DNA from: Jiangella aurantiaca
GTDB lineage: Bacteria; Actinomycetota; Actinomycetes; Jiangellales; Jiangellaceae
Direction: 5' to 3'
Length of the DNA stretch: 64,000 nucleotides
NCBI RefSeq assembly: GCF_004349105.1
Contig: NZ_SMLB01000002.1
Span: 186,001 to 250,000, forward strand
In this document: in pieces, positions 10,590-26,676 of the stretch
Position numbering within the stretch: the first letter of the stretch is position 1
How the letters are laid out: each line of letters begins with the position of its first letter
The notes under the pieces: generated by a model
The model's database searches: none
Seen by the model: the letters and a program-made list of their open reading frames with translations, nothing else
What the model was told of the DNA's origin: nothing
Made by a program: the position numbers and the translations under genes

Positions 10590-10616
10590 CGCAGGTGAGT
10601 CGATGTCGCGCGCTAC
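10586..10616 (+). terminator. weak hairpin at the peptidase stop
   Basis: GTAGCGC at 10586-10592 overlaps the stop codon and pairs with GCGCTAC at 10610-10616 across a 17-base loop. It could end the peptidase transcript; the long loop and lack of a T-tract make this tentative. Confidence 0.3.
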
Positions 10617-10664
10617 CTGCTGCAGAGTTCAGTCACCATCCGCGCGGTCTCCGGGTCGTTGCAA

Positions 10665-10835: not shown

Positions 10836-10840
10836 TCCGG

Positions 10841-12112
10841 CTACCGCGCGGTCGCTCGGCCCGCGGCGCGGGCCTCCGCGGCCAGGCGTTGGCCGGCGAT
10901 CTCGGCCTCGAACCGGGTCGCCATGCTGGTGAGGTGTTCGAGGACGTCGGGATGGCCGTGGCGCAGGTCGTAGGTCTCGGCCGGGTCGAGCTCGAGATTG
11001 AACAGCTGAGGCAGCTCCCTGCCCTGGGCTCGGTTCGGGTCGCGTGGGAAGCGGTCGAGGTGCAGCTTCCACGGCCCCGATCGGACGGCGTTGAGCGTCC
11101 ACCAATGGAAGAAGAACAGCGGCCGCGGTCGTGGGATCGGTCCGCCGGTGAGGACGGCGGACATGTCGATGCCGTCGATCGGCCGGTCCTGCGGCACCGC
11201 TGCGCCGGCCAGGCCGGCGAGGGTCGGGAGCAGATCGAACAGGCACACCGGCTCGTCGGACACCGCGCCCGCCGGGATCCGTCCCGGCCATCGAGCGACG
11301 AACGGGACCCGGATCCCGCCCTCGTACGTGTGCAGCTTGGTGCCGCGCAGCCCGCCGGTGCTGCCTTCGAACCACGGCCCGTTGTCGCTGGTGATCACGA
11401 CGAGGGTGTCGTCGGCCAGGCCCAGGTCGTCGAGCCTGTCGAGAAGGCGGCCGATGTGGTGGTCCAGGCTCTCGACGACATCGCCGTACCTGCCGCCGGC
11501 CGACCGGCCGGCGAACTCGTCCCCCACGTGCAGCGGGATGTGCGGCATGGTGTGCGCGAGATAGACGAAGAACGGCTGGCCGGCGTGCCGCTCGATGAAG
11601 TCGACGGCCTGATCGGTGTAGGCACGGGTCAGCGCCGCCTGGTCGACGTCGGCGGTGGAGATCTTCTCCCCGTCGAACAGCTCGACCGGATGCATGTCGT
11701 TGCTGTAAAGAAGCCCGGCGTACTCGTCGAAACCGTGCCGGGTCGGGTAGTGCTCCGGCCGGCACCCGAGATGCCACTTGCCGAACATCGCCGTCCGGTA
11801 GCCGGCGTCGCGGAGCATCTCCGGCAGGGTGTACTCCCACGCCGACAGGCCGGTGCCGTCACGCGGGTTCAGCACCCGCGGCAGCCCGACCCGCTGCGGA
11901 TACCGTCCGGTCAACAACGCCGCGCGCGACGGGGTGCACACCGCCGAGGCCGCGTACATGTGCCGCAGAGTGATCCCGTCCGCGGCGACGGAGTCGATGC
12001 GCGGCGTCCGCAGGATCGTGTTCCCCATACAACCGAGGTCGCCGTAGCCGAGGTCGTCCATCACCACCAGCACGACGTTCGGCCCGACCCCGGCCGCCGA
12101 CCGGTCACTCAT
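10841..12112 (-). CDS. type I sulfatase (arylsulfatase A-like)
   Basis: A 423-residue sulfatase that should hydrolyse sulfate esters, last gene of the LacI-controlled operon. The metal site begins at VVLVVMDDLGYGDLG (about residues 13-27) and the formylglycine signature is CTPSR with C59, followed by ALLTGRYP; GKWHLG near 111-116 and the TSDNG motif near 240 complete the active site. No signal peptide is seen, so desulfation would be cytosolic and its Cys modified by a formylglycine-generating enzyme encoded elsewhere. Its ATG overlaps the upstream sulfatase by eight bases. The pair of sulfatases implies a multiply sulfated substrate. Which sugar is desulfated cannot be told from sequence. 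Confidence 0.88.
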   Translation of the reverse strand: MSDRSAAGVGPNVVLVVMDDLGYGDLGCMGNTILRTPRIDSVAADGITLRHMYAASAVCTPSRAALLTGRYPQRVGLPRVLNPRDGTGLSAWEYTLPEMLRDAGYRTAMFGKWHLGCRPEHYPTRHGFDEYAGLLYSNDMHPVELFDGEKISTADVDQAALTRAYTDQAVDFIERHAGQPFFVYLAHTMPHIPLHVGDEFAGRSAGGRYGDVVESLDHHIGRLLDRLDDLGLADDTLVVITSDNGPWFEGSTGGLRGTKLHTYEGGIRVPFVARWPGRIPAGAVSDEPVCLFDLLPTLAGLAGAAVPQDRPIDGIDMSAVLTGGPIPRPRPLFFFHWWTLNAVRSGPWKLHLDRFPRDPNRAQGRELPQLFNLELDPAETYDLRHGHPDVLEHLTSMATRFEAEIAGQRLAAEARAAGRATAR

Positions 12113-13373
12113 CGTGCACCGGAGCCACGGGTCCGGTCAGGGCCGGATCCTTTGTCTCGACCATCCACTCCTCCAGGCGCGCCGCCAGGCCGGCCCTCAC
12201 GCTCGCGTACGCCGCGTCGTCGGCGAGATCGCGCAGCTGCCACGGGTCGTCGTCGAGGTCGTAGAGCTCCTCGGCGGGTCGTGGCCGCAGCTGTTCGTCA
12301 CCCAGACCCAACCGCACCGGGCTGCGCTCGATGTCACCCGAGAACCTCGGCGGCGTGCCCGGTTCGAGATTGCGGATGTAGGCGAACCGGTCCGTGCGGA
12401 TGCTCCGGATCGGGTCGTACTCGTCGTGGTAGTTCTTCTCGGCGAAGATCTCGGTGCGCCGCGGGCCGGGCTCTCCGCGCAGGACGGCTGCGAAGCTCGT
12501 GCCCTGGACGAACGGTGGGACCTCGCCGCCGGCCACGTCGAGCAGGGTGGGCAGCACGTCGACATGACTGAGCAGCCCGTCCGGAGTCGCCGGCGCGATG
12601 TCCCACGATCGCGGCGGCCGGGCGATGAACGCCACCCGGATGCCGGGGTCGTACAACGTGCCCTTCGCTCGCGGGAACGCGATCCCATGGTCGGTGGTGA
12701 ACATGACCAGGGTGGACTCGGCCAGGCCGGCCCGGTCGATGGCGTCCAGGACGCGGCCGGTGGCGGCATCGGCGACCCGGATCGAGCCGAGGAACCCGGC
12801 CAGGTCCTCCCGCGTGTGGTGGTTGTCCGGCAAAAACGGCGGAACCTCGACCGTCGCCGGGTCCGCCGGCGGGTACTCCGCCGCCGGATACGGGCGATGC
12901 GTCTCGAAGAACCCGACGGTGAGGAAGAACGGCTCCGCCGGCGCCGCCTCGAGCCACTCCACCGCCTTCACCGACACCGGGCCGCATCGTGCCCCACCCG
13001 TGGGCCACGGATACACCTCATCGAAGCCGAGCCTGAACGGGTCGCGGCTCTCGTGCTGCTGACCGATGAGAGCGGTCCGGTAGCCGAGCTCGGACAGCAG
13101 CGCCGGGGCGGTCCGCTCACCCGGACCGTACTCCCACCCCCTGTTCACCAGGCCCATCAACCCGTTCGTGTGCGGATAGCGGCCGGTGAACAACGAACCC
13201 CGGGCCGGGCTGCACAACGGCGTCGTGCAGAACGCCCGGCCGAAGCGCAGCCCCTCGGCGGCCAGCCGGTCCACGGCCGGGCTGGTCACGTCACCGTGGC
13301 CGTACGCGCCGAGATGGGTACCGACATCATGCCAGTGGATCAACACCACATTGGGCCGCTCGGTCGTCGTCAT
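12105..13373 (-). CDS. type I sulfatase, divergent N-terminus
   Basis: A 422-residue sulfatase. The metal-binding entry is unusual: VVLIHWHDVGTHLGAYG (about residues 9-25) rather than the DDxG form, keeping D16. The formylglycine motif is CSPAR with C54, then SLFTGRYPHTNGL. GQQHES near 104-109 occupies the place of GKWHLG, and FTTDHGIAFPRAKGTLYD near 235-250 carries the last metal ligands; this layout resembles heparan-type and N-sulfatase/sulfamidase-like relatives, so the substrate could be an N- or O-sulfated sugar. Start ATG overlaps the FAH gene stop (ATGA). No signal peptide. Family is secure, substrate unknown. Confidence 0.86.
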   Translation of the reverse strand: MTTTERPNVVLIHWHDVGTHLGAYGHGDVTSPAVDRLAAEGLRFGRAFCTTPLCSPARGSLFTGRYPHTNGLMGLVNRGWEYGPGERTAPALLSELGYRTALIGQQHESRDPFRLGFDEVYPWPTGGARCGPVSVKAVEWLEAAPAEPFFLTVGFFETHRPYPAAEYPPADPATVEVPPFLPDNHHTREDLAGFLGSIRVADAATGRVLDAIDRAGLAESTLVMFTTDHGIAFPRAKGTLYDPGIRVAFIARPPRSWDIAPATPDGLLSHVDVLPTLLDVAGGEVPPFVQGTSFAAVLRGEPGPRRTEIFAEKNYHDEYDPIRSIRTDRFAYIRNLEPGTPPRFSGDIERSPVRLGLGDEQLRPRPAEELYDLDDDPWQLRDLADDAAYASVRAGLAARLEEWMVETKDPALTGPVAPVHDE

Positions 13374-15202
13374 GCGCGGCCCGCCGATCCGTGCGGCACG
13401 AGATCGGCACGTATCTTGCCGAGACCCTCGATCTCGCCACGGACGACGACGCCGGCGTCGTACTCGTCCCGGGTGAGGACGAGCCGGGCCGCGGTCGACC
13501 CCAAGGTGATGACGTCGCCGGGGAACAGCGTGATCATGGCTGAGATGGTCCTGATCAGGTCGCCCGGTCCGGCGATGTAGTACGACGTCGAGCCGCTCAC
13601 CACCCGGTCGCCGACCTCCAGGGACATGGCCCGGTCGCGCCAGTCGTGGTCGGGCAGCGGTACGAGCGCGTCAGCCACGATGTTGAACCCGTCGGCCCAC
13701 CGGCCGTACATGGCGGGGGCGCCGCGTTCGCCGGTCCGGGCAGGCTCCACGACCGCGTCGGCGAACGAGCGGTCGCATACCGAGACCAACGGCGTGTACC
13801 CGAGCACGATCTCCGGCCCGTCCTCCACCTCCGCCGCGAGCGCACGGACGACGACGGCGAGCTCGATGCTCACGACGAGGTCCGTCGCACGCGGCGGGAT
13901 CTCGACCGGGGATCCGCCGTTCCCCAACGAGCTCGCGGGACCGTTGAGGAATCGCGGCACCTCGAGCCGGGGCAGCCCGTCGGACTCCTCGGCGGTCTCG
14001 TGGTTGCCGAACGCCGTGTAGAAGTGCCGAGCCGACCCGGCCGTCCAGGACCGCGGCGACTCGAGGGCCGACGCGCCGGACGTCGCGATCTCCCGCACCG
14101 CATAGGACGGGTGCGACTCCAACGGCATCGCCGGCCGGTCCGTCCCGTCGGCGATGACCACAGGGTTCACCAGCGTGCCGACGTCCTCGATCTCGACCTC
14201 GAGGCGCGTCAGCGGGTCGGCCACGTCGTCCGGGAGCACCGGCAGGCCGTCGACGCCCATCGTCGCGAAGTGGATGACGTCGCCCGGGTTGAGCGAGGCG
14301 AACGACGAGTACCAGGAGATGACGCGCTCGATCCCCATGAGGGTCGCGCCGCTGTGGGCGCGATCCCGCGTTCGCCCCGACTGCCGGGTGTACATCAGCA
14401 GGTCGTACGGATCGCCGATCTCGTCCTTCGTCACGAGGAACGGACCCATGGGGGCGAGGGTGTCGGCCTTCTTCCCGCCCCAGGAGGCGGTCGCCTGGTA
14501 GAGCCAGTCGCCGTAGCGTTCCGGCAGCGAGTAGCCGCGCCCGGCGTTGCCGGGGACGATGCCGTAGTAATAGGTGCCGGACACGTCGTTGACCACGGTG
14601 TAGCCGGCCACGTGCTCCATCGCCCGCTCGATCGGGATGTACCGGCCGGCCTTGCCGATCACCACGGCCAGCTCGACGTTGTAGGCCATGAGCGGCTGGT
14701 GGTTGCCGCCTCTGAAGGTGACCGGTGCGCCGGAGCCGATCGCCGCCCCCTGCGGCCGTTGGTGCCCGAGCGGGAACAAGTTGAGGATGCGGGTGTTCGG
14801 GTTGTTCCGCACGAACGACGGAGCGTTCGCCACCAGTCCCCAGTAGAGCCGAGGCCGCGGAACGGGAGCCAGAAGCTCGACCTCTTCCACCGGGTGCCCG
14901 GCCTTCGGCAGCAGCGTCGCGTCCGACTGCGCCACGAACCGCTCGACGTACGGCACCAGCCGTGACAACGCGGCCATGCCCTCGTCCTCGAGGGCGAGGA
15001 ACTCCACGAGCGTGGCCGGCCAGTCGTCCCCGAGGAACCGGGGACGACTGGCGACCAGGCCCGACGACGGGATCGACGCGTACCGGACGACGAAGGCCTC
15101 GGCCTGCGCGGGTTCGACCACCCAGACCCGCCCGGTGGCCGGCTCGTCGACGACGAACCCCCACCGTTCGGCGCCGTCGACGAGGTAGCTGGCAAGCCTC
15201 AC
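13370..15202 (-). CDS. tandem fumarylacetoacetate-hydrolase-fold protein
   Basis: A 610-residue protein with two fumarylacetoacetase-like halves. The first half (about 70-345) carries YWGLVANAPSFVRNN, a YNVELAVVIGKAGRYIP segment and VNDVSGTYYYG; the second (about 370-605) carries ELAVVVRALAAEVEDG, a VSVCDRSFADAVVE segment and the LEVGDRVVSGST end with LFPGDVITLGS. FAH-family proteins are metal-dependent C-C hydrolases or decarboxylases of acylpyruvates; members act in 2,4-diketo-3-deoxy sugar-acid routes for rhamnose and fucose. Standard members are near 280 residues, so this is a duplication or fusion. GTG 15202 is picked because AAGGGA lies about 7-10 bases upstream; the longer open frame has no family content. 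Its placement with sulfatases and an FAD oxidoreductase suggests cleavage of an oxidised sugar acid. Confidence 0.78.
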   Translation of the reverse strand: MRLASYLVDGAERWGFVVDEPATGRVWVVEPAQAEAFVVRYASIPSSGLVASRPRFLGDDWPATLVEFLALEDEGMAALSRLVPYVERFVAQSDATLLPKAGHPVEEVELLAPVPRPRLYWGLVANAPSFVRNNPNTRILNLFPLGHQRPQGAAIGSGAPVTFRGGNHQPLMAYNVELAVVIGKAGRYIPIERAMEHVAGYTVVNDVSGTYYYGIVPGNAGRGYSLPERYGDWLYQATASWGGKKADTLAPMGPFLVTKDEIGDPYDLLMYTRQSGRTRDRAHSGATLMGIERVISWYSSFASLNPGDVIHFATMGVDGLPVLPDDVADPLTRLEVEIEDVGTLVNPVVIADGTDRPAMPLESHPSYAVREIATSGASALESPRSWTAGSARHFYTAFGNHETAEESDGLPRLEVPRFLNGPASSLGNGGSPVEIPPRATDLVVSIELAVVVRALAAEVEDGPEIVLGYTPLVSVCDRSFADAVVEPARTGERGAPAMYGRWADGFNIVADALVPLPDHDWRDRAMSLEVGDRVVSGSTSYYIAGPGDLIRTISAMITLFPGDVITLGSTAARLVLTRDEYDAGVVVRGEIEGLGKIRADLVPHGSAGRA

Positions 15203-15261
15203 GCGTCGATCCCTTCGCTGTTCATCGCCCGTGCCGTCGGCCGGCGGGCCCATTGTCCCGT

Positions 15262-17115
15262 TCAGGAGGTCCTGACCAGGGCACCCAGCGGCAGGCGGCG
15301 CCACCCCGTGCCGTCGGCGACGGCGAGGATGCCGGCTCCGGTGGACGCATCCTGCACCAGGGCCACGGCTCCCGGCGTGGGTTCCGGCAGGTCGGCCGCC
15401 GATACGACCGTGAGCTGCAGGTTGTGCGCGTACACAGTACGGATCTTCCGCTCTGCCGACCCGATGTCGCGGAGGTTGTCGGCGGATGGGATCAGCCCGT
15501 TGATGTCCACCCGCATGGCCGCGACGGCGTTGGTGTCGTTCGTCGAGCAGAGCAGCTCGACCGCGGCGGCGCCGGACGCATTGGCCGGGACGACCCGTAC
15601 ACCGCCCTTCACCCCCGGTCCCGCACCGATCGGCTGTTCCGACGCGGCGACGAAGCTGCCGTACGCGTCAGTACCGGCTGCTGGCGCGGCGGTCGCCCGG
15701 ACCACGAGCGCGCCGTTCTTCGCCGCGGTGAGCTCGTGCTGGTTGGCGCCGACGCTGCGCCGCTCGATGTAGTTCTCCTCGCCGATCGCCTCGGCGTAGA
15801 CGACGCCCGCGGTGTTGTCGAAGAGGTTCCCGACGATCGTGGATCCGGTCAGCGTCCCGATCACCCGCACCGGGGGCGCCCCGGCGACGGTGTTCGCGCC
15901 GAACGCGTTACCGATCACCGAGAGGTCGGTGGCGTCGCCGTTGACGCGCACGGCCGCCCAGCGCTCCTCGGCGAGGAGGTTCCAGTTGTCGAACGAGTTC
16001 GCCGAGACCGTGATCTCCGACGCCGCCCGGCCGAAGTAGATCGGCGACCCGTCGACCCAGTTGAAACTGTTCCCGGTGATCGTGACGTTGCGCGCGGCCG
16101 CCTCGGGCCGGAACTCGATGGCGTGTCGCGGCCGGGCGCCGCCACCCGGGTCGCCGCCGCCCAGGACGTTGCCGGTGAAGGTGAGGTTCGAGCCACCCGA
16201 CTTCACGGAGATCACCGCGGCGTCGGCGGCGTTGGTGGCCCCGTTCTCGACGACATTGCCGGAGAAGGTCGAGTTGATGATCCCTCCGGTGAACAACCGC
16301 CGGCCGATGTCGAGGATGTTGTTGGCGATGATCGCACCACGGAAGTTGTGCGCGTCGGCGCCGGTCGTCGTGATCGCGAAACTCATGCTGTGGAAATGGT
16401 TGCCCTCGATGAGCCACTTGCGCATCCCGTACGGCAGCACGTGGACGTTGCTCCCGGCGACGCCTCCGGTGGGCCACGAGATGTCGAGGCCCACGTCGCC
16501 GACCGCGACGAGGTTGTTCGTGAACACCAGTCCGCGCCCGACGTGCTTCACCGCGGTGAAGAACTCGACGAACGTGCACTCGGTGATCGTCGCGTCCATG
16601 TCGTCGGTGTTGGACTGTGTGCCTCGGCCGGCATCGCGGGCGATGTGGATGCCGATCGTGTTCGTCAGGCTCGCCGGCGCGACGAAGGAGAGCCCGCGGA
16701 CCGCGGCCAACGGCGCCTGCAGAAGGATGCCGGTGCCGTTGAAGTCGACGTCGATGATCGACGTCCGCGATCCCATCGTCCCGGCGCCGGCGAGCACGAG
16801 GCGGTTGAAGTTCGGCGCGAGGTTGCCCTCGACGTCCGGGATCACGAGGGTCCGGGTGATCCGGTACGTGCCGGGCGGGAAGTAGACGATCTTGTTCGGC
16901 TTGGTCAGCTGGGCGTCGATGGCCTGCTGGATGGCGTTTGTGTCGTCGGCGGCGCCGTCGCCGACGGCGCCGAAGTCCTGCGGGGTCGCGGCGCCGGCCA
17001 GGTCCACGGCGGGTGCTGCCTGCGCCGACGCGCTGACGGCGCCGAGCGTCGCGGTGGCGACTCCCGCGATGCCCGCGGTACGGAGCAGATGACGCCTGTT
17101 CACGGGTGTGACCAT
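15262..17115 (-). CDS. Tat-exported pectate-lyase-like beta-helix protein with C-terminal tail-fibre-like domain
   Basis: A 617-residue exported protein. NRRHLLRTAGIAG at residues 6-18 followed by a hydrophobic Ala-rich stretch is a good twin-arginine signal, with likely cleavage near AQA. Residues 43-75 are the DFGAVGDGAADDTNAIQQAID and YFPPGTYRIT entry of pectate-lyase-3-type beta-helices, then many N-x-F/I-x-G repeats to about 430. The C-terminus is unusual: AVAAMRVDINGLIPSADNL then RDIGSAERKIRTVYAHNLQL resembles the closing modules of phage tail fibres and intramolecular-chaperone proteins. It could be a lyase or hydrolase that cuts the operon substrate outside the cell. No catalytic residues can be assigned. 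AAGGGA precedes ATG 17115 by about 8 bases; 66 bases separate it from the oxidoreductase gene. Confidence 0.72.
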   Translation of the reverse strand: MVTPVNRRHLLRTAGIAGVATATLGAVSASAQAAPAVDLAGAATPQDFGAVGDGAADDTNAIQQAIDAQLTKPNKIVYFPPGTYRITRTLVIPDVEGNLAPNFNRLVLAGAGTMGSRTSIIDVDFNGTGILLQAPLAAVRGLSFVAPASLTNTIGIHIARDAGRGTQSNTDDMDATITECTFVEFFTAVKHVGRGLVFTNNLVAVGDVGLDISWPTGGVAGSNVHVLPYGMRKWLIEGNHFHSMSFAITTTGADAHNFRGAIIANNILDIGRRLFTGGIINSTFSGNVVENGATNAADAAVISVKSGGSNLTFTGNVLGGGDPGGGARPRHAIEFRPEAAARNVTITGNSFNWVDGSPIYFGRAASEITVSANSFDNWNLLAEERWAAVRVNGDATDLSVIGNAFGANTVAGAPPVRVIGTLTGSTIVGNLFDNTAGVVYAEAIGEENYIERRSVGANQHELTAAKNGALVVRATAAPAAGTDAYGSFVAASEQPIGAGPGVKGGVRVVPANASGAAAVELLCSTNDTNAVAAMRVDINGLIPSADNLRDIGSAERKIRTVYAHNLQLTVVSAADLPEPTPGAVALVQDASTGAGILAVADGTGWRRLPLGALVRTS

Positions 17116-17181
17116 GCTGCTTGTCCCTTCGTTGGGTGGAGTAGCTGGTTCTCGTGCGGTGACAGGACGGTCCGTCGGCCG

Positions 17182-18795
17182 TCAGTAGCCCTTCACCTCG
17201 GGCCAGGCGAGCTCGAACCCGTCGGCGACGAGCTCGCTCTGGAAGGTGTCGAGCCGGACGGCGTCGCCGCGTACCTGCTCCGGGGTGAGCGAGTGGGCCA
17301 GGCAGTGCGCGGCCAGGGCGCCCGCGGCCTCGCCGATGTTCCACTCGACCGGGTGGAGGCGGTAGCAGCCGTTGGTGATGTGCGTCGTGCCGAGGTTCTT
17401 CCCGGCGGCGAGCAGGTTGCGCACCCGGACCGGCAGCAGGGCACCGAGCGGGATCTGGAACGGGCTGCTGGGCACGTCGATGTAGTTGTCGCCGCCGGTC
17501 GACGGGTGTAGGTCGATCCGGTACATCCCGATGCCGACCGAGTCCGGGTACCGCACGGCGCCGGCATCCCCGCGGACGGTCATCGACAGGTCCTGCTCGA
17601 CGATGGTCGTGTGTGCCTTGATGCGGCGGGACTCCCGGATGTACGGCGCCATGGCCAGGCCGTCGGTCGTGCCCATGACGTCGGGCCGCAGCCGCAGACC
17701 CGGCCAGCCGGCGCCGCCGCCGGGCCGGGGCGCTTCGGTCTGCAGCCAATAGAGCATGCTCAGCGAGAGCTGCCGCGCGCCCTCCAGGTGCTTGGCGCGC
17801 TCGTCGTCGGAGACCCCGGCCAGCGGACCGGGCAGGTAGTCGATCATCGGCCAGTTGACGACGGTGACGTCGCTCGCGGCGAGGCCGGGCTCGTACTGCT
17901 CCCGGGCGAAGATCCGGCGGAACAGCCACAGGTCGCGGTCGCCGGGGTCCTTGCTCTGGTCGGCCACCACCCGGCCGGCGGGGGCATGCGGCACGAACGT
18001 CCGCGTGAACGGCACCAGCGTCCGCGGGTCCGGGGCGGTGAGGCTGAGCAGCCGATCCGGCCAGAAGTCCGGCTGGTAGTCGCGCCAGAACCCGTACTGG
18101 TCGGGGCGGTCGATCGTGTGGTCCTCGCCTTCGCGGTGCTCGACCGCGAACACCCACGAGAACGCCTGCTGGTTGAGCGGCTGCGCCTCACTCGGTGCGC
18201 TCGGCTCGCCGGTCTCGGACTGCGCCTCGAAGCCGATGCTGTGCTCGACCCCCGCCAGCGGCAGCAGGTCGCCGAGCTCGGTGGCGTCCAGGACGTACGA
18301 CGCCTCGATGGTGCACCCCACGCCGTCGCGAGCGACGACGGTGACGGCCGTGACCCGGTCGCCGTCGGTCTGGGCGGCGACGGGGCGGTGACCGGTCAAG
18401 ACCCGCAGCGTGCCCGCGGAGCGGTACGGGGCGAGCATGCCCTCGATCACGGACAGGGCGACCCGCGGCTCGTGACACAGGCGGCTCACCCGGCCCAGAC
18501 CCGGATTCAGGTCGGCCTGGCGGCGCGCGGCCGCGGTGAGCGGGTACCAGGTCCGGTAGTAGTCGCGCACTCCCTCACGGAACGCGCGATACGAGCGGGT
18601 GCACCCGAACTGCTCGATCCACGGATGCTCGTCCGGCGGGACAGCCTGGCTGGTGAGCTGCCCGCCGAGCCAGTCGCACTCCTCCGTCACGGTCACCGAC
18701 CGGCCGCGACGCAGCGCCGCCAGAGCCGCCGCGACCCCGCCCACACCTCCGCCGACGATCAGGATGTCGGTGTGGAGGCTCGCGTCCGTACTCAA
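17182..18795 (-). CDS. FAD-dependent oxidoreductase (FAD_oxidored/PF12831-like)
   Basis: A 537-residue flavoprotein. Residues 9-24 form the Rossmann entry ILIVGGGVGGVAAALAA, and CDWLGGQLTSQAVPPDEHPW at about 41-60 is characteristic of the FAD-dependent oxidoreductases often found in sugar-catabolic loci. The late GKNLGTTHITNGCYRLHPVEWNIGEAAG segment (about 480-507) closes the FAD site. The start is unusual: TTG 18795 overlaps the TGA of the upstream ATPase gene (TTGA) with GGGAG about 9 bases before it; no ATG or GTG fits the beginning of the domain. Probably oxidises an imported sugar or uronate derivative in the cytosol before the FAH-type enzyme acts. Substrate unknown. Confidence 0.8.
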   Translation of the reverse strand: MSTDASLHTDILIVGGGVGGVAAALAALRRGRSVTVTEECDWLGGQLTSQAVPPDEHPWIEQFGCTRSYRAFREGVRDYYRTWYPLTAAARRQADLNPGLGRVSRLCHEPRVALSVIEGMLAPYRSAGTLRVLTGHRPVAAQTDGDRVTAVTVVARDGVGCTIEASYVLDATELGDLLPLAGVEHSIGFEAQSETGEPSAPSEAQPLNQQAFSWVFAVEHREGEDHTIDRPDQYGFWRDYQPDFWPDRLLSLTAPDPRTLVPFTRTFVPHAPAGRVVADQSKDPGDRDLWLFRRIFAREQYEPGLAASDVTVVNWPMIDYLPGPLAGVSDDERAKHLEGARQLSLSMLYWLQTEAPRPGGGAGWPGLRLRPDVMGTTDGLAMAPYIRESRRIKAHTTIVEQDLSMTVRGDAGAVRYPDSVGIGMYRIDLHPSTGGDNYIDVPSSPFQIPLGALLPVRVRNLLAAGKNLGTTHITNGCYRLHPVEWNIGEAAGALAAHCLAHSLTPEQVRGDAVRLDTFQSELVADGFELAWPEVKGY

Positions 18796-19625
18796 CTGAT
18801 CTGCTCCCGTGTGTACTCGAACCCGACGTTCGTGCCTTCCAGGTCGTGGGCGGCGCTCAACAGCCCTTGGGTGTACGGATGGGCGGGCGCCGTGAACAGC
18901 TGCTCGGCCGTCGTGCACTCGACCAGCTCGCCCGTCTTCATCACCGCCACCCGGTCCGCGATCTGCCGTACCACCGCGAGGTCGTGCGTGATGAAGAGGA
19001 TCGACAGGTCGTGCGTGCGCTGGAGATCGACGAGCAGGCGCAGGATCTGCGACTGGACCGACACGTCCAGAGCCGAGACCGCCTCGTCGCACACCAGCAG
19101 GCGCGGTCGCAGCGCCAGCGCTCGAGCGATGCTCACCCGCTGGCGCTGGCCGCCGGACAACGCCGACGGGCGGCGGCCGGCGACGCCCGCGTCGAGACCG
19201 ACGTCGGCGAGCACCTCCGCCAGCGCCTTCCGGCGATCGCCCTTCGGCGCGACCGCGGGATGCACCTTCCACGCCTCGCGGATGATCGCGCTCACGGTCA
19301 TTCGCGGATTCAGCGACGAGCCGGGATCCTGGAACACCATCTGGATGGCGCGCTGCAATTCCGCGGGCCGCTTGTCGATCGGCCCGAGCGCTCGGCCCTC
19401 GTACGTGATCGTGCCCTCCTGCGGGCGGACGAGCCCGAGGACACAGCGCGCGACGGTCGACTTCCCCGACCCGGACTCGCCGACCAGCGCCAGTGTCTCC
19501 CGGGCCCGGATGTCCAGGTCGACGCCGGCGACGGCCTGGACGATCGTCCGAGCTGCGCGCAGCGACCGGCGGGGTCCGGGGAACGCCACCCTGAGGTCAC
19601 GGATCTCCAGAACGTGCGAACTCAC
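18792..19625 (-). CDS. oligopeptide/dipeptide-type ABC transporter ATPase (DppF-like)
   Basis: A 277-residue cytosolic ATPase of the family-5 ABC importer class. Walker A is GESGSGKST near 49-57, the signature LSGGQRQRV lies near 155-163 and Walker B LLVCDEAVSALD near 173-184, followed by the ITHD H-loop. The short protein without a cysteine-rich C-terminal extension is typical of the F-type partner. GTG 19625 overlaps the stop of the D-type ATPase (GTGA). In this operon the importer most likely brings in oligosaccharides rather than peptides, as family-5 systems in actinobacteria and Thermotoga often do. Regulated by the LacI operators upstream. Confidence 0.9.
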   Translation of the reverse strand: MSSHVLEIRDLRVAFPGPRRSLRAARTIVQAVAGVDLDIRARETLALVGESGSGKSTVARCVLGLVRPQEGTITYEGRALGPIDKRPAELQRAIQMVFQDPGSSLNPRMTVSAIIREAWKVHPAVAPKGDRRKALAEVLADVGLDAGVAGRRPSALSGGQRQRVSIARALALRPRLLVCDEAVSALDVSVQSQILRLLVDLQRTHDLSILFITHDLAVVRQIADRVAVMKTGELVECTTAEQLFTAPAHPYTQGLLSAAHDLEGTNVGFEYTREQIS

Positions 19626-20653
19626 GGCTCCACCTTCTCGGAGAAATGGCAGGCGCTGAACCGGCCCGGCTCGACCTCACGCAGGAGCGGCACCTCAGTG
19701 CGACAGCGGTCCTGTGCCATCGGGCAGCGCGGATGGAACGCGCACCCGGTGGGCCGGTCGAACGGGTTGGCCGGGGCGCCCTGCAGCGGCTCGGCGATCG
19801 CCGACTTCGTGCTGACCGCCGGCACGTTGTTCGCCAGTGCCCGGGTGTACGGGTGCAGCGGGTGCTCCAGCACCTCCCGCGCCGGGCCGCGCTCGGCGAC
19901 CCGGCCGGCGTACATGACCACCACATCGTCGGCGACGTGCGCCATCACCCGCAGGTCGTGGCTCACCAACAGCATCGCCATGTGCTCCTGCTCGCGCAGG
20001 TCGGCCAGCAGCCGGAGGATGCGCGCCTGGGTCGTGACGTCGAGGGCGGTCGTCGGCTCGTCCGCGATGATCAGCTGTGGCTCTCCGGCCAGCGCCATCG
20101 CGATCATGACCCGCTGCCGCATGCCGCCGGACATCTCGTGCGGGTACACGTCGATCCGCTGGTGCGGGTCCGGGATCCCGACCCGCTCCAACAGCTCCAG
20201 GACCCGGGCTCGGACCTGCTGACGCGACATGCCGCCGCGCCGCAATATCTCGCCGACCTGCCTGCCGATCGTCTGGATCGGGTTGAGCGCGGCCAGCGGG
20301 TCCTGGAAGATCACACCGATCTCCCGGCCACGGACCTGCCGGATCCGGCGAGCGGCCGCGGTGAGGAGATCCTCCGACCTCCAGGTGACGCGACCCGCGG
20401 TCTCCGCCTCGGCCGGCAGCAGCCCGACGATCGACATCGCGCTCATCGTCTTGCCACTTCCGGACTCCCCGATGAGGCCGGTCGTGCGGCCGGCGTCCAC
20501 GGCGAAGGACACCTTGTCGATGACGGTACCTGGAGTGGCACCCGACGGCAGCACGACCACGAGGTCCTCCACCCGGAGCAGAGGCGCTCCGGGTGCGTGG
20601 GCCGCGTCGCCTGCCGCGGGTGCCGCGGCGGTGGACGAGTACTGATCAGTCAC
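19622..20653 (-). CDS. oligopeptide/dipeptide-type ABC transporter ATPase (DppD-like)
   Basis: A 343-residue ATPase with the typical D-type layout: Walker A GESGSGKT near 60-67, LSGG-type signature MSGGMRQRV near 168-176, Walker B LIIADEPTTALD near 187-198, H-loop VSHD, and a C-terminal oligopeptide-transporter extension rich in Pro and Cys (FHPRCPMAQDRC) that binds an iron-sulfur cluster in some relatives. It starts at GTG 20653, overlapping the stop of the binding-protein gene by eight bases, and pairs with the F-type ATPase downstream. Confidence 0.9.
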   Translation of the reverse strand: MTDQYSSTAAAPAAGDAAHAPGAPLLRVEDLVVVLPSGATPGTVIDKVSFAVDAGRTTGLIGESGSGKTMSAMSIVGLLPAEAETAGRVTWRSEDLLTAAARRIRQVRGREIGVIFQDPLAALNPIQTIGRQVGEILRRGGMSRQQVRARVLELLERVGIPDPHQRIDVYPHEMSGGMRQRVMIAMALAGEPQLIIADEPTTALDVTTQARILRLLADLREQEHMAMLLVSHDLRVMAHVADDVVVMYAGRVAERGPAREVLEHPLHPYTRALANNVPAVSTKSAIAEPLQGAPANPFDRPTGCAFHPRCPMAQDRCRTEVPLLREVEPGRFSACHFSEKVEP

Positions 20654-22175
20654 CCGAGACCGTGACCTCGTCGAAGTAGGGCACGCCGTCCGGGACGGGC
20701 TGGAAGCCCTCGACGCTGGTCCGCCACGCGTACGGCTGCTCTACGAACATCGGGTACATGCCGACCGCGTCGTTCCAGATGATCTCGCTCGCCTGCGCAT
20801 ACAGGTCCTCGCGCTGCGCCGTGTCGCTCGTCGAGCCGGCCTCGGCGAGGATCTGATCGAGTTCCTCGTTGCAGTAGCCCATGCGGTTCGCCGCGCACGT
20901 GTAGAGACGGCCCAGGTTGGTCGCCGCGTCGAACCCCTGCGTCCCGAGCTGCTGGAGGTTCATGTCCCAGTTCAGCGCCAGCAGGTCTTCGAGGAAGACC
21001 GCCTGCTCCTTCTCCATCGGCTCGACGGTCACGCCGATCTCGGCGAGGTCGGAGACCACCGCGTCGACGAAGTTCCGGAAGTTGGCCTGCGAGAACTGCC
21101 ACCGGATCACGGTGTTCTCGTAGTCGAACCCGGCCGCGTCCAGCGCCGCCTTGGCCGCCTCCGGGTCGTACTCCACCGGCTCCTGCGGTGCGTAGCCGAG
21201 CACGGCGGGGCTGATCGGCGAGTCCGCCGGTGTTCCCGTCTCCGGGTACAACGAGCCGATGATCGACTCGAAGTCGACCGCCTGCCACAGGGCCTGCCGC
21301 ACAGCTGAGTCCTGCAGGGCCGGCGTGGAGCTGTTCATCCACATCGTGAAGACGGCCGGGCTCGCGACGTTCTCGACAGTGATGTTGGAGTCCGACCTCA
21401 GCTGCGCGATCTGGTCATCGGGCATGGCCCAGGTGACGTCGACCTCGCCGGTCTGCAGCGCCGTCATCCGAGCCGCCACCTCGGGGATCGACTGGAACTC
21501 CAGGGAGTCAAGGGCCGGCTCGCCGTCCCAGTAGCCGGGGTTCGGCGCGAGCTGGAGCGTCGCCCCAGGCTCGAACGACTCCACGACGAACGGCCCGGAC
21601 CCGATCGGATCCTGGAAGAAGCCTTCGTTCGCGGCGGCCTGCGGCGTGACGAAGAACGAAGAGACCTTGCCGAGGAACGCGGCGTCCGGCGTCGGAGAGG
21701 TGAAGACCACGGTCGACTCGTCGGGTGCCGCCGCGGTGTACCCGCCGAAGTTGCCGGCGAGCGGACCTTCCCCGGCCAGGACGCGGTCGAACGACGCCAC
21801 GACGTCGGCCGAGGCGACAGGAGTGCCGTCGGAGAACTCGACCCCTTCACGCAGGGTGAACGTCCACACGCTGGCGTCGGCGTTGGGTTCCCACGACTCC
21901 GCGAGCTCCCCCTCGAACTCGCCGGGACCGTTGCTGACGACGAGCTGGCTGAAGATCGCCCGAGCCGCGAGCTGGGTGCCGGCGTCCAGGCTCGCCGCAC
22001 CGTGGGGGTCGAGGTTCTCGATCGGGATCGGCCCCGCGACGGTCAGGTCGCCGCCGGCCGCCTCGGAGCCACCGGTCTCAGACGCCGGGTCGTCGGATGA
22101 GCAGGCAGCAGCCCCGATGAGCAGTGCGACGGCGCCTGCGGCCGCCGCCAGCGATCGCCGAGTACGGATAGTCAT
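20646..22175 (-). CDS. ABC transporter substrate-binding lipoprotein, family 5
   Basis: A 509-residue extracellular solute-binding protein of family 5 (SBP_bac_5). The N-terminus has a basic start, a hydrophobic stretch and a lipobox ending in C25 (GAAAC), followed by an acidic Ser/Asp/Gly linker, so it is membrane-anchored outside the cell. SBP_bac_5 features include LAESWEPNADASVWTFTLRE at about 89-108 and FSDGTPVASADVVASFDR near 112-129. The family binds peptides, nickel chelates or oligosaccharides; the sulfatase and beta-helix context favours a sugar ligand. ATG 22175 has AAGGA about 10 bases upstream. Its 3' end overlaps the D-type ATPase. Confidence 0.9.
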   Translation of the reverse strand: MTIRTRRSLAAAAGAVALLIGAAACSSDDPASETGGSEAAGGDLTVAGPIPIENLDPHGAASLDAGTQLAARAIFSQLVVSNGPGEFEGELAESWEPNADASVWTFTLREGVEFSDGTPVASADVVASFDRVLAGEGPLAGNFGGYTAAAPDESTVVFTSPTPDAAFLGKVSSFFVTPQAAANEGFFQDPIGSGPFVVESFEPGATLQLAPNPGYWDGEPALDSLEFQSIPEVAARMTALQTGEVDVTWAMPDDQIAQLRSDSNITVENVASPAVFTMWMNSSTPALQDSAVRQALWQAVDFESIIGSLYPETGTPADSPISPAVLGYAPQEPVEYDPEAAKAALDAAGFDYENTVIRWQFSQANFRNFVDAVVSDLAEIGVTVEPMEKEQAVFLEDLLALNWDMNLQQLGTQGFDAATNLGRLYTCAANRMGYCNEELDQILAEAGSTSDTAQREDLYAQASEIIWNDAVGMYPMFVEQPYAWRTSVEGFQPVPDGVPYFDEVTVSGD

Positions 22176-22217
22176 GTGCGGGAGTCCTTTCGTCGTTGGA
22201 AGTGAGCGGCCAGCGCC

Positions 22218-23102
22218 CTAGTCCCGCTTGCGCGTGAACCGCCGGGTGAGCCTGTCGCCGACCAGGCCGATGCAGATGACGAGGATCGTGAGCGCGATAC
22301 CGGGGAAGACCGTGATCCACCAGGCGGTGCTCAGGTGCTCCCGGCCGCCCGCGATGGCCTGTCCCCACGACACGATGTGCGGGGGAAGACCGAGACCGAG
22401 GAAGCTGAGGGCCGCCTCGGACAGCACGGCCGATGCGAGTTCGATCGTGGCCAGGGCGACGACCGATCCGGCCAGGAACGGAACGATGTGCCGCTTGAGG
22501 GTGGCCGGCTTGGAGACGCCCATGATGCGGGCGGCGTCCACCCAGTCGCGTTCGCGGGTGGACATCGTGATACTGCGCGACAGCCGCGCGAAGCCGACCC
22601 AGCCGCCAACCGACAACGCGATGATCACGACGTGCATGCCGCGCTCGAGCAGGCCGGCGATGACGATCGCGAGCAGGATGCCGGGGAACGCCATCAGGAT
22701 GTCGATGGTCCGCGAGACGACGGCGTCGGGCAGCCCGCCGGAGTATCCGGCGATCGCGCCGAGCGCGACACCGATCAGGCAGCACACCGTGACGACGGCG
22801 ATGCCGATGATGAACGACGTCCGCGCGCCGTACACGACCTGCGCCAGAACGTCTCGTCCAACGGCGTCGGTGCCCAGCCACGCGGTACCGGACCCCGTCG
22901 CCGATCCCGGGGGTAGCAGGCGCTCGGTGACCTCGGTGGCCACCGGGTCGTAGTCGATCAGGAACGGGCCGATCGCCGCCGCGAGCACGTAGACGCCGAT
23001 GATCACGTAGGGAATCGCGGCGAGGGGCCGCCGGCGCCGGCGCCGGACGGGAGGTGCGGCCGGACCGGGGGCCTCGGTGAGCAGGATGTCCGACTGGGTC
23101 AT
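22218..23102 (-). CDS. ABC transporter permease (DppC-like)
   Basis: A 294-residue inner-membrane permease with one N-terminal helix (PYVIIGVYVLAAAIGPFL, about residues 35-52) and a cluster of five helices after residue 95. The EAA loop is near 195-215 and includes SKPATLKRHIVPFL. The LGTDAVGRDVLAQVVYGARTS signature of DppC/OppC permeases is at about residues 75-95. ATG 23102 overlaps the stop of the partner permease (ATGA); the longer open frame upstream belongs to the partner gene's region. Forms the channel with the DppB-like permease. Confidence 0.9.
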   Translation of the reverse strand: MTQSDILLTEAPGPAAPPVRRRRRRPLAAIPYVIIGVYVLAAAIGPFLIDYDPVATEVTERLLPPGSATGSGTAWLGTDAVGRDVLAQVVYGARTSFIIGIAVVTVCCLIGVALGAIAGYSGGLPDAVVSRTIDILMAFPGILLAIVIAGLLERGMHVVIIALSVGGWVGFARLSRSITMSTRERDWVDAARIMGVSKPATLKRHIVPFLAGSVVALATIELASAVLSEAALSFLGLGLPPHIVSWGQAIAGGREHLSTAWWITVFPGIALTILVICIGLVGDRLTRRFTRKRD

Positions 23103-24028
23103 CGGCGCGCCTCCAGACGGATCCGAGGGTCGAGCTTGGCGTTGACGATGTCGGCGGCCAGGTTGAGGACGATCACGCACAGGGCGATCAGGACGGTGGC
23201 TGCCTGGACGACCGCGTAGTCACGGTTCCCGACCGCGCTGACCAGCAGGGACCCGAGCCCGGGCCACGCGAACACGGTCTCGATGATCACGGCGCCGCCG
23301 AGCAGTGTCCCGACCTGGAGACCGACGACGGTGACCACGGGGATGAGCGAGTTCTTCACGACGTGGCCGGTGAGCACCTGCGTCTCGGTGAGGCCCTTGG
23401 ACCGGGCGGTCTGGACGAAGGCCTCGGACATCGTCTCGGCCACGCCACTGCGGGTCATGCGGGCTACCAGCGCTGTGAACGGGATCGACAGCGTGACCGC
23501 CGGCAGGACGAGGTTGGCGAGACTGCCGCCGCCGGCACTGGGCAGCACCTGCAGCTGCAGCGCGAAGATCAGGATGAACATGATGCCGACCCAGAACGGT
23601 GGCAGTGCCTGGAGGCCGAGAGCGAACGTGGAGACCGCCCGGTCGAGGACGCTGCCCGGCTTCTTGCCGGCGAGGACGCCGAGGATCAGGCCGGCGATGA
23701 TCGCGATGACCGTGGCGGCCAGGGTGAGCTCGACGGTCGCCGGGAAGCGCTCGATCACCTGATCCATGGCCGGGCGGCCGAAGCGGTAGGACTCTCCGAA
23801 GTCGAGCCTCACGACGTCGCCGAGGTACGAGAAGTACTGGACCAGCAGGGGCCGGTCGAGGCCGAGCGTGTGCCGCAGCGCCTCGATCTCCGCCGCGCTC
23901 GCGTCCGGGCCGAGTGCCACCGTGGCCTGGTCGCCGGGCGCGAGCCGGACCACGATGAAGACCGCGGTGACGACGCCCCAGATGGTGAGGAGGCCGATCG
24001 CCAGCCGCTTGACGATGAAGTAGGTCAC
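23099..24028 (-). CDS. ABC transporter permease (DppB-like)
   Basis: A 309-residue membrane permease: first helix at about residues 8-27 (LAIGLLTIWGVVTAVFIVV), then the RLAPGDQATVALGPDAS periplasmic region and five more helices. The QTARSKGLTETQVLTGHVVKNSL region near 205-227 is the EAA loop contacting the ATPase. Start GTG 24028 overlaps the lacI stop (GTGA), so regulator and transporter are translationally coupled. It is the usual B-type partner of the family-5 importer. Confidence 0.9.
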   Translation of the reverse strand: MTYFIVKRLAIGLLTIWGVVTAVFIVVRLAPGDQATVALGPDASAAEIEALRHTLGLDRPLLVQYFSYLGDVVRLDFGESYRFGRPAMDQVIERFPATVELTLAATVIAIIAGLILGVLAGKKPGSVLDRAVSTFALGLQALPPFWVGIMFILIFALQLQVLPSAGGGSLANLVLPAVTLSIPFTALVARMTRSGVAETMSEAFVQTARSKGLTETQVLTGHVVKNSLIPVVTVVGLQVGTLLGGAVIIETVFAWPGLGSLLVSAVGNRDYAVVQAATVLIALCVIVLNLAADIVNAKLDPRIRLEARR

Positions 24029-25098
24029 CGCGGCGGTCCCTTCGGCGGTGCGGGCGGTTCGGCGATGGAGACGCCGGGGATCGGCGTACAGGCGACGTTC
24101 AGCTGACGAGGTTCGCCGTCGTCGTTGTCCAGCAGGTCCAGGAGCAGCCGGACGGCCTCCCGGCCCATCTCCTCGCGGGGCAGTGAGAAGCGCGTCCAGT
24201 CGCGGGCGCCCTCGCCGAGGGGCGGGTCACCGAGCAGGACCACCGAGCAGTCCTCGGGGATGCGAACACCGGCCTCGGCCGCGGCTCGCTCGACCGCGGC
24301 GATCGTGGAGTCGTCCTCACTCGGTTCCACCAGCAGGGCCGTCACGCCGGCGGACAGCCAGCTGCGCAGCAGGTCACCCGTGATGACGCCGTGGTCGTCG
24401 ATGGGGTGGACGACGCAGCCGTCGCCGGCGATCCCCACGTCACCGAGCCCCAGCCGGAACCCGGACTCGCGGTCCCGGGTCGGTTCCTGATCTCCGCTCA
24501 GCTTGAGGTACGCGAGATGCCGATGCCCGCGATCGGCGAGCGTCCGGACCATGTCCCGAGTGGCGCCCACGTAGTCGGCGGCGACGTACGACAGCTCCTC
24601 ACCGGGGACCTCGCGGCGTCCGATGAACACGAACGGGAAGTCCTCGTGGACGAGTTCGGCCAGGTCGTCGCGGTGCAGATGGCGACCGAGAAGCACGCAG
24701 CCGTCGGCCACCTTGAGCCGGTTGACCCCGCCCGCGTAGATGCGTCGAGTACCCCCGGCCGTGGCCGAGCTGAACAGCAGCAGGTCGTAGCCGTAGCGAG
24801 CCGTCGCCTCCTCGACGCCGAGCAGGAACGGGAAGTAGAAGTCCCGCTGGTCCACCGGAAACACCGGCTCGAACGTGTACAGGCCGAGCATCCGGGTACG
24901 TCCGCCCTTGAGCCTGCGCGCCGCGGCGTTGACCGTGTATCCGAGCTCTGCGGCGGCCTCGAGCACCGCGCGGCGGGTCTTCTCGGCGACCTGGTCGCTC
25001 GCCGCGCCACCACTGATGACCAGCGAAACCGTCCCCTGGGAGACGCCCACACGCCGGGCTATGTCCACCTGGGTGGGGCGCCGCCGTTGCGCTGCCAT
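24025..25098 (-). CDS. LacI-family transcriptional repressor of the sulfatase/ABC operon
   Basis: A 357-residue regulator: the LacI helix-turn-helix PTQVDIARRVGVSQGTVSLVISG sits at about residues 8-30, the hinge with NAAARRLKGGRTRMLGLYT at 55-73, then a periplasmic-binding-protein-like effector domain ending in GREAVRLLLDLL. ATG 25098 is preferred over ATG 25104 because AAGGA ends five bases before it, while it touches the first ATG. The gene is first in the transporter operon and carries a palindromic operator just upstream (25107-25120), the same as that in front of the alpha/beta hydrolase. That indicates autoregulation and control of both units. The inducer is presumably a sugar released from the imported substrate. 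Confidence 0.9.
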   Translation of the reverse strand: MAAQRRRPTQVDIARRVGVSQGTVSLVISGGAASDQVAEKTRRAVLEAAAELGYTVNAAARRLKGGRTRMLGLYTFEPVFPVDQRDFYFPFLLGVEEATARYGYDLLLFSSATAGGTRRIYAGGVNRLKVADGCVLLGRHLHRDDLAELVHEDFPFVFIGRREVPGEELSYVAADYVGATRDMVRTLADRGHRHLAYLKLSGDQEPTRDRESGFRLGLGDVGIAGDGCVVHPIDDHGVITGDLLRSWLSAGVTALLVEPSEDDSTIAAVERAAAEAGVRIPEDCSVVLLGDPPLGEGARDWTRFSLPREEMGREAVRLLLDLLDNDDGEPRQLNVACTPIPGVSIAEPPAPPKGPPR

Positions 25099-25106
25099 GG
25101 CCATCC

Positions 25107-25166
25107 TTAATACGTATTGATTCCTGATGGGCGCTCACGTTACGGACAGATGACGCGCGCCGTCAA
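25107..25166 (-). promoter_or_regulatory. lacI operon promoter and operator
   Basis: On the minus strand: -35 TTGACG at 25166-25161, 18-base spacer, -10 TAACGT at 25142-25137, 16 bases, then the operator TCAATACGTATTAA at 25120-25107 (ten-base core AATACGTATT is a perfect palindrome with the CG centre usual for LacI). The operator sits in the start region of the transcript, right before the ribosome-binding site, where bound repressor would block transcription. The same spacing recurs at 26394-26453. Confidence 0.8.
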
Positions 25167-25301
25167 GAGCCCGTCGACGACTCGTCCCGAGCTGTTATCG
25201 AAGGGCCGGGTAGCCGTCACAGGCGACACGATGCGAGTACCGCGGGCTCGTCATGGGGCGCGTTCTCGTCGCGCCGCGCGGGCGTCGACAAATGCCGCCG
25301 G
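25121..25301. other. non-coding spacer between hydrolase and lacI
   Basis: Apart from the promoter elements listed separately, I see no gene or clear terminator between the hydrolase stop and lacI. The two units therefore could also be joined by read-through. Confidence 0.5.
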
Positions 25302-26225
25302 TCAGGGCTTGTCGATGACCGCCAGGCGGCTGAAACGAGCCATTTCCCAGGTCGTCCTGTCGAAATAGCTGACGTTTTCGTCATCGGGTCGCCGACGGGC
25401 GCCGTCGCGCGGATTGAAGAAACCGTGGCGCTGGCCGGGGTACAGGATGACCTCGGCATACCCGCCGTGCGACATCACTGCCCGGGCGAAATCGACGGAG
25501 TTCTCGTGGTGCACGGCGGTATCCGCCGTGCCGTGCATGACCAGCACGGGCGGAGTTCTCGAGCCGACGTGATGCACAGGCGAGTAACGCCGGGCGTGAT
25601 CGTCGTTGTCAAAGTGCCGTCTGCCGAATCCGGCCGGGAACTCACCGCAGGTGTTCGTGACCGGATTCAGCAGGACGAGAGCGGCCGGCCGGTGGTTCGG
25701 ATCGGTGTCCGGCAGGTCGAGCACGGCCGTCGCCAGTGCCAGGTGGCCGCCGGCCGAGCCGCCGATCGCCACGATGCGCTCCACGTCGCACCCGATGTCC
25801 CGGGCGTTCTCGACCACGGCCCTCATGGCGGCCACCGCATCCGCGGCGGCCGCCACGGGGCCCTCCATGCGGTACTCGACGAGCACGGCGAGCATGCCCA
25901 GCTCGTTCAGGCAGGACGCCTGCGGCAGAAACTGCCTCCACGTTCCGCGGACCCACCCGCCCCCGTGGTAGAAGACCGCCGTCGGCACCGGCGAGCTGAC
26001 CGGCTCGCGGGATGGCGACACATGAAGGAGCATCGTCCGGCCGTCAACTGTCCTGTAGGGGATCTCGCGCACGGTGTCCGAGGATGCGCGCGCAGCCCAC
26101 ATCAGTGCCGACGCGTCACCCATGGGGGAACGACTCGAGGAGTGGCTCAGATCGGCCGTCCTGGCGGAGAGATCAGCCACGATGTCCCGTCCGACACCGC
26201 CAGCGACGCTCGACCCCACGGGCAT
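25302..26225 (-). CDS. alpha/beta hydrolase (BD-FAE/esterase-lipase type)
   Basis: A 307-residue hydrolase. The oxyanion HGGGWVRG lies at about residues 87-94, the nucleophile elbow GGSAGG near 154-159, the acid in VLVMHGTADTAV near 231-242 and the His in YPGQRHGFF near 265-273. This layout matches BD-FAE-like carbohydrate esterases and HSL-type lipases; next to sulfatases it may remove acetyl or feruloyl groups from the substrate. The frame has a TGA just upstream of ATG 26225, but no good ribosome-binding site; ATG near residue 35 (MGDASALMW) could be the true start. A short ORF with a better site begins upstream in another frame at 26319, so a frameshift in the N-terminal region is possible. 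It is controlled by the operator at 26394-26407. Confidence 0.78.
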   Translation of the reverse strand: MPVGSSVAGGVGRDIVADLSARTADLSHSSSRSPMGDASALMWAARASSDTVREIPYRTVDGRTMLLHVSPSREPVSSPVPTAVFYHGGGWVRGTWRQFLPQASCLNELGMLAVLVEYRMEGPVAAAADAVAAMRAVVENARDIGCDVERIVAIGGSAGGHLALATAVLDLPDTDPNHRPAALVLLNPVTNTCGEFPAGFGRRHFDNDDHARRYSPVHHVGSRTPPVLVMHGTADTAVHHENSVDFARAVMSHGGYAEVILYPGQRHGFFNPRDGARRRPDDENVSYFDRTTWEMARFSRLAVIDKP

Positions 26226-26319
26226 CGGTGATCACGGCGGTGGCGCCGGTCAGGCCAGCCGGCGACGGGAGGTCGGACGTCTCGCAGGGCGTGATCGCGA
26301 CGCGGGTGGCTTCAGGCAT
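26173..26319 (-). CDS. 48-residue ORF downstream of the LacI-type operator
   Basis: First ORF after the promoter at 26394-26453. GGGGGA ends five bases before ATG 26319, a good ribosome-binding site, and the first 36 codons are strongly GC-rich at the third position, like real genes here. The product (MPEATRVAITP start, GATAVITDARG near residue 25-35) is not recognised. It overlaps the hydrolase start in another frame by about 53 bases. It is either a leader or small coupled peptide, or the true N-terminus of the hydrolase cut off by a frameshift in the DNA or the assembly. Confidence 0.4.
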   Translation of the reverse strand: MPEATRVAITPCETSDLPSPAGLTGATAVITDARGVERRWRCRTGHRG

Positions 26320-26393
26320 GGTCATCCCCCATGGAGATCGTGGCCGACGACGGACGCCGAAGCGGCAGAGGATGTCGAGCAGACATCCAGGCG

Positions 26394-26453
26394 TTAATAC
26401 GTATTAAAGCGTTGCTGATGGTGATCGTACGCGCGAAGAGCACCGAGGGTCAA
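26394..26453 (-). promoter_or_regulatory. hydrolase promoter and perfect LacI-type operator
   Basis: On the minus strand: -35 TTGACC at 26453-26448, 18-base spacer, -10 TACGAT at 26429-26424, 16 bases, then the perfect 14-base palindrome TTAATACGTATTAA at 26407-26394. Element choice, spacings and operator match the lacI promoter at 25107-25166 base for base in layout. It should be repressed by the same LacI protein. Confidence 0.82.
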
Positions 26454-26676
26454 CGGGCTGCGAAGGGCGGTGCCTGCCGGGTGCGCGAGGCGCGCCCCAG
26501 TACAGCTCGAGGAACGACAAGTCACGGTGTTAGCCGCCGTTGTCGATGACGATGGGTCGTCGTCGACGTTGACGACCAGGCGTGGACAACCGGTCCGATG
26601 TCGGATGGGTCGTGTGCGCCGTCAGCGTGGCGTCGTACGGGGCTGCCGCACACGGCGACGACGACCGGGTACGGCT

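Follow-up and report, generated by a model that had tools for sequence, protein, structure and literature searches.

A predicted autoregulatory LacI promoter and a relic promoter of the same geometry in Jiangella aurantiaca

Genes and promoter elements at the locus

We examined a stretch of 64,000 nucleotides of the Jiangella aurantiaca genome (contig NZ_SMLB01000002.1, positions 186,001 to 250,000), referred to here as the window; coordinates below are those of the window. The genes and elements that enter the analysis are as follows.

10841–12112 and 12105–13373, minus strand: two sulfatases (PF00884)
13370–15304, minus strand, start uncertain: FAH-domain protein, two matched stretches (Pfam, NCBIfam)
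15262–17115, minus strand: beta-helix protein (PF12708), with a signal-like N-terminus as judged by eye
17182–18792, minus strand, start approximate: FAD-dependent oxidoreductase (PF12831, from Pfam)
18792–19625 and 19622–20653, minus strand: two ABC ATPases (the former from NCBIfam, the latter from PF00005 and PF08352)
20646–22175, minus strand: family-5 extracellular solute-binding protein (PF00496)
22218–23180 and 23099–24028, minus strand: two ABC permeases (PF00528)
24025–25104, minus strand, start at 25104 or 25098: lacI, LacI-family regulator of 359 aa with recognition helix VSQGTVSLV, first gene of the predicted operon (PF00356, PF13377)
25107–25120, minus strand: candidate operator 1, TCAATACGTATTAA (pattern scans of window and genome; core present in homologues)
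25137–25166, minus strand: predicted promoter P1, serving lacI and the operon, TTGACG-18-TAACGT (homologue comparison)
25302–26072, minus strand, GTG at 26072: conserved part of an alpha/beta hydrolase (Pfam, comparison with other copies)
26144–26290, minus strand: 3' end of a deleted beta-helix gene, 86.5% identical to Jiangella genome G005 over 148 columns
26173–26325, minus strand: relic ORF of this second beta-helix gene, 50 aa, with the native first codons and a C-terminal segment, then a frameshift
26394–26407, minus strand: candidate operator 2, TTAATACGTATTAA (pattern scans; identical to the G005 homologue at 13 of 14 bases)
26424–26453, minus strand: predicted promoter P2, TTGACC-18-TACGAT (a beta-helix promoter in G005 is its homologue)

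The lacI gene heads a run of eleven minus-strand genes that extends over 14 kb from 25104 to 10841, with intergenic gaps of at most 66 bp, and lacI and the ten genes that follow are likely to be read as a single transcript. Seven of the ten junctions overlap as listed; gaps were computed with every ORF taken from its most upstream possible start codon, so that some of these overlaps are probably artefacts and some listed starts probably lie too far upstream. In NCBIfam the FAH-domain protein scores best against 2,4-didehydro-3-deoxy-L-rhamnonate hydrolase, with 113 bits where the cut-off is 500.

The predicted regulator has the features of the LacI/GalR family, namely an N-terminal helix-turn-helix domain (PF00356, 41.9 bits against a cut-off of 27), a periplasmic-binding-protein-like sensor domain (PF13377, E 3.5e-24) and a CG-centred palindromic candidate operator. 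The 17 matches listed to named LacI subfamilies of NCBIfam (CcpA, CytR, RbsR, PurR and others) all fall far below their cut-offs.

On the minus strand, P1 comprises TTGACG (25166–25161), an 18-bp spacer and TAACGT (25142–25137), followed after 16 bp by operator 1 (25120–25107). P2 comprises TTGACC (26453–26448), an 18-bp spacer and TACGAT (26429–26424), followed after 16 bp by operator 2 (26407–26394). The initial annotation had described two promoters of identical architecture, and the common layout, TTGAC(G/C)-18-TAnnnT-16-operator, is confirmed to the base. Operator 2 is a perfect palindrome, from which operator 1 deviates by one base; the right arm of operator 1 (TTAAGG) overlaps what appears by eye to be the likely lacI Shine-Dalgarno sequence.

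With up to three mismatches allowed, TTAATACGTATTAA occurs in the window at just these two places (shuffle mean 0.01, with none of 100 shuffles reaching two). Across the genome (6.62 Mb in 102 contigs), the two operators are the only sites with no mismatch or one; two further sites have two mismatches and five have three, and a reversed control pattern matches once at up to three. A consensus scan of 10300–26600 returned P2 as the sole sigma-70-like match (shuffle mean 0.5), with P1 under the threshold.

P1 and its operator are conserved upstream of lacI homologues

Similarity searches with the window LacI yielded 58 non-identical homologues with upstream DNA, 38 of them at least 59% identical to it; the homologues are not independent, and many of the 38 are closely related. 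The set of 38 spans Jiangella and its family as well as Promicromonospora, Microlunatus, Actinophytocola and Prauserella, and the nearest named relatives found, J. asiatica and J. ureilytica, are 93% identical to the window LacI. One lacI of the same clade (clade A, see below), from genome G003, fell outside the set, probably through the filters applied; its operator is CCAATACGTATTAA.

The core ATACGTAT lies within 300 bp upstream of all 38 genes, against a mean of 0.045 and a maximum of 1 of 38 for shuffled upstream regions. TTGACG is likewise present in all 38 promoters, followed by a spacer of 18 bp in 36 and 17 bp in two. For each promoter the highest-scoring boxes within 75 bp were taken, and the scoring gave a bonus to spacers of 17–18 bp and to TA...T, so the spacer count is slightly biased toward 17–18 bp; the occurrence of TTGACG is independent of the bonus. 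The gap between the −10 box and the operator is 13–17 bp in 37 of the 38 promoters and 2 bp in the remaining one. It is exactly 16 bp in 12, so a 16-bp gap is no rule among the homologues, and its identity at P1 and P2 is in part coincidence. All elements are still visible in a non-redundant set of 26 promoters that are mutually less than 72% identical.

Below 59% identity the exact core was found in just 3 of 20 homologues, and several others carry related palindromes such as CTATTACGTATTAG or CTGATACGAAACAG. The homologue at L052, just under 59% and outside the 38, has two ATACGTAT sites, and that at L054 (55%) has TACGTA variants only, without the exact core. A distant homologue (L154, genome G183) has two perfect palindromes at −184 and −94, CTAATACGTATTAG and CTAATGCGCATTAG, which differ solely next to the central CG. 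Within the promoters, the P1 spacer (25143–25160) and those of its relatives contain a GAAAT-like patch with 0.6–0.9 bits per column, whereas farther upstream most columns reach about 0.02–0.4; in 24 of the 26 non-redundant promoters a C directly precedes TTGACG.

The gene order of lacI followed by transporter genes is kept in several relatives (for example at L040–L042, L047, L051 and L053). Around lacI at L043 and L045 there are only solute-binding and beta-helix genes, and the FAD oxidoreductase, ABC permeases and ATPases were not found at these two loci; at L049 there is only the FAH gene. Other genera thus retain the operator, the promoter and some of the gene order, and the content of the operon varies between them. 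The position of lacI as first gene, the gaps of at most 66 bp and the conservation across genera support, at the level of sequence, the earlier proposal that LacI regulates itself and the 14-kb operon. A conserved site at its own gene and a tight neighbouring run of uptake and catabolic genes are what an autoregulated local LacI regulon would display, and P1 is most likely a strongly conserved LacI autoregulatory promoter.

LacI paralogues and other candidate targets

A LacI search of the J. aurantiaca genome gave 53 matches, seven of which, including the window LacI, are at least 39% identical to it and clearly separate from the rest. Of the six paralogues only C33, 61% identical, is preceded by the exact ATACGTAT core; near variants lie upstream of C38 and C23, and C91, C43 and C6 yielded no such site. 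Since the core also lies upstream of a paralogue, one regulon cannot be delimited from matches to the motif alone. The genome search that had been suggested as a way to find the rest of the regulon returned no site with 0–1 mismatch other than the two operators.

In a tree of LacI proteins, clades A (which includes the window LacI), B and C are set apart with 100% bootstrap each in Jiangella. Clade B has the recognition helix VSQSTVSVV and operators TCGATACGTATCGG (five of six) or TAGATACGTATCGG (one). VSQATVSLV is common to clade C and the majority of clade A, and the helix of the window LacI differs from it by one residue. The operator flanks are mostly CCA...TAA in Jiangella clade A and (C/T)TA...GAA in 7 of 11 clade C operators, with other forms in the remaining four. 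Helix and flanks both differ in clade B from those in A and C, which counts as a single event in the tree and not as a statistical test. Three proteobacterial relatives with helix VSTAVVSA have ATAATGCGCTTAAT or ATAAAGCGCTTAAT upstream. Across the three clades the ATACGTAT core is constant and the helix and operator flanks vary, which makes them a small natural series. All three are present together in G002, in G005 and in G010, and the series could serve to test how paralogous repressors are kept from cross-talk within one cell.

A site at C5:6451 precedes a gene for a BNR-repeat protein (PF13088), and such a site lies upstream of this gene in eight genomes of the genus (L105, L177–L180 and L182–L184), the gene having been sought in the loci adjoining the sites. 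Clade C is present in all eight genomes, and in three of them (G001, G006 and G009) no clade-A LacI is among the five candidates scored per genome, so the BNR-repeat gene is more likely a target of clade C.

These comparisons bear on the possibility that the clade-C paralogue C33 binds one or both of the window sites and that the two repressors cross-regulate, which we consider a serious alternative that nevertheless falls well short of an even chance. The helix common to clade C and most of clade A, operators that differ between them only in their outer bases, and the occurrence of the BNR-gene site with clade C throughout would all be consistent with such cross-binding. Against it, the operator flanks differ by clade in a way that may suffice for discrimination, and the window LacI itself is one helix residue away from clade C.

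Further sites in the genus are G009:C249:42009 and G010:C1:1222589. At L181 (G003:C165), a promoter and operator of clade-C type at 4379 lie directly before a glycoside hydrolase gene, with no LacI match between the site and the gene; this gene seems to be a target whose local repressor gene has apparently been lost.

At E 1e-20 or better, the PF12831 FAD oxidoreductase is represented eight times in the J. aurantiaca genome. Seven of these copies are no more than ~5.3 kb away from the seven LacIs of the window subfamily (window, C33, C23, C91, C43, C6 and C38), the eighth (C22) is not near such a LacI, and a copy is also found near the proteobacterial LacI relatives at L056–L058, suggesting a possible pairing of regulator and enzyme. 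At the locus of paralogue C23 (L108), the FAD-oxidoreductase gene has its own operator-like pair, at 9542 and 9584, besides the site near lacI.

P2 precedes the remains of a beta-helix gene

A search of 12 Jiangella genomes, in which eight sites were re-examined with wider DNA, revealed a homologue of the P2 site in G005, consisting of TTGACC-18-TAACAT and CTAATACGTATTAA. The G005 site precedes an intact beta-helix gene of ~510 aa (PF12708), the one intact relative of the relic among the 12 genomes. The window aligns with G005 through the promoter, the leader and the first codons and then jumps to the 3' end of the gene. Within the P2 region the two are identical at 6 of 6 positions of the −35 box, 13 of 14 of the operator and 7 of 18 of the spacer, and the −10 boxes are TACGAT in the window versus TAACAT in G005. 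The relic retains the ancestral stop codon (26149–26147), and a 1-nt deletion breaks the frame and leaves the last ~50 codons frameshifted. Given the G005 homologue and the relic in the window, homology identifies P2 as the native promoter of a beta-helix gene most of which has been lost.

Two other origins for these features were considered. A misassembly is an unlikely source of the relic, because the surviving 3' segment shows 13.5% divergence and carries a 1-nt indel of its own. Derivation of P2 from P1 by local duplication was judged unlikely by eye, because P1 and P2 have little in common outside the elements and P2 aligns with the beta-helix promoter and leader of G005.

The hydrolase downstream of P2

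The initial annotation had made the hydrolase the owner of the second promoter. The listed hydrolase ORF reaches 26225, with 51 extra upstream codons that lie partly over the relic; similarity to other copies of the hydrolase starts at about residue 44–57, and ~320 bp separate operator 2 from the conserved start. We compared eight distinct other copies, at L040, L041 (= L101), L044, L046, L098, L099, L100 and L102, and none has a CG-centred upstream site of at least 9/14 within the upstream DNA covered (~9 kb for L040, L041, L044 and L046; 1.5 kb for L098, L099, L100 and L102). Seven of the eight copies lie directly upstream of a lacI that carries its operator, and no site was found at L102; the copy at L040 is reduced to fragments.

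Before the hydrolase start codon, CATAAT is present at L044 and L100 and ATCAT at L099, and the window and L098 have CATCCT. The CATAAT and ATCAT boxes of the relatives suggest, by eye, a leaderless promoter. Loss of the beta-helix gene may have left a LacI-controlled promoter in front of the hydrolase, which in this lineage would thereby have joined the regulon, with P2 perhaps standing in for a native promoter that had decayed; we hold this capture to be conceivable and rather doubtful.

That P2 is instead the hydrolase's own promoter, and the hydrolase a native member of the regulon of the window LacI, is improbable. In favour of this reading, the geometry of P2 is right, its operator is perfect, the hydrolase is the nearest intact gene downstream of P2 on that strand, and no terminator-like site was found between the two. 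Yet the G005 homologue of P2 serves a beta-helix gene whose relic lies between P2 and the hydrolase here, no operator was found upstream of the eight other copies in the DNA covered, and the ~320 bp to the conserved start add to the difficulty; ownership of P2 by the hydrolase is therefore not supported.

A model for the two promoters

We favour, with a probability of about 0.8, a model in which P1 is the autoregulated promoter of a local LacI repressor and an operon for glycan uptake and degradation, and P2 is the relic promoter of a deleted beta-helix gene. RNA polymerase would use TTGACG-18-TAACGT at P1. The operator starts 16 bp past the −10 box, which would place it ~10 bp into the predicted transcript. 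A LacI dimer bound to this CG-centred palindrome, ~10–24 bp downstream of the presumed start, would hinder initiation or promoter escape, and lacI and the ten following genes would stay low until a sugar released the repressor. The second beta-helix gene would once have been driven from P2 and regulated in the same way, which would account for a geometry equal to that of P1. A large internal deletion and a frameshift would then have reduced the gene, leaving an intact-looking promoter and operator, whether or not it still fires, upstream of the hydrolase.

It is scarcely credible that the palindromes arose by chance as AT-rich motifs or serve a different regulator: the window shuffles and the genome scan speak against chance, the core adjoins lacI in all 38 homologues, and the operator flanks vary along with the recognition helix.

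As read from the DNA, then, the system is an ordinary autoregulated LacI operon accompanied by a relic promoter, and the relic promoter is the unexpected part. A motif of perfect geometry can belong to a gene that has vanished, which calls for caution in regulon prediction.

Comparison with known systems

Among the titles and abstracts listed in searches of the open-licence literature (motif and LacI, Jiangella LacI, PF12831 glycan loci, paralogue cross-talk), none concerned this system. The E. coli lac operator O1 lies just downstream of the transcription start, and the operator in the window is similarly placed relative to the predicted start. Unlike the E. coli lac repressor, the window LacI has no evident tetramerisation tail, as judged by eye, so a loop joining the two operators, whose centres are 1287 bp apart, is not supported; the protein is probably dimeric and would act without looping.

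The transporter genes resemble ABC uptake operons with a family-5 solute-binding protein, with two permeases, the binding protein and two ATPases in order. The window run differs from such operons in the addition of the PF12831 FAD oxidoreductase, the beta-helix protein, the FAH-domain protein and two sulfatases.

According to a survey of LacI regulators, 72% of those studied are autoregulated and a central CG pair is reported for 1173 regulators (PMC4052901). Autoregulated local LacIs share with the window system an even CG-centred palindrome, a site near the start of the regulator gene and an adjacent carbohydrate operon (PMC4052901). The window system departs from them in two ways: its operon begins with lacI itself, and there is overlap between operator 1 and the likely ribosome-binding site.
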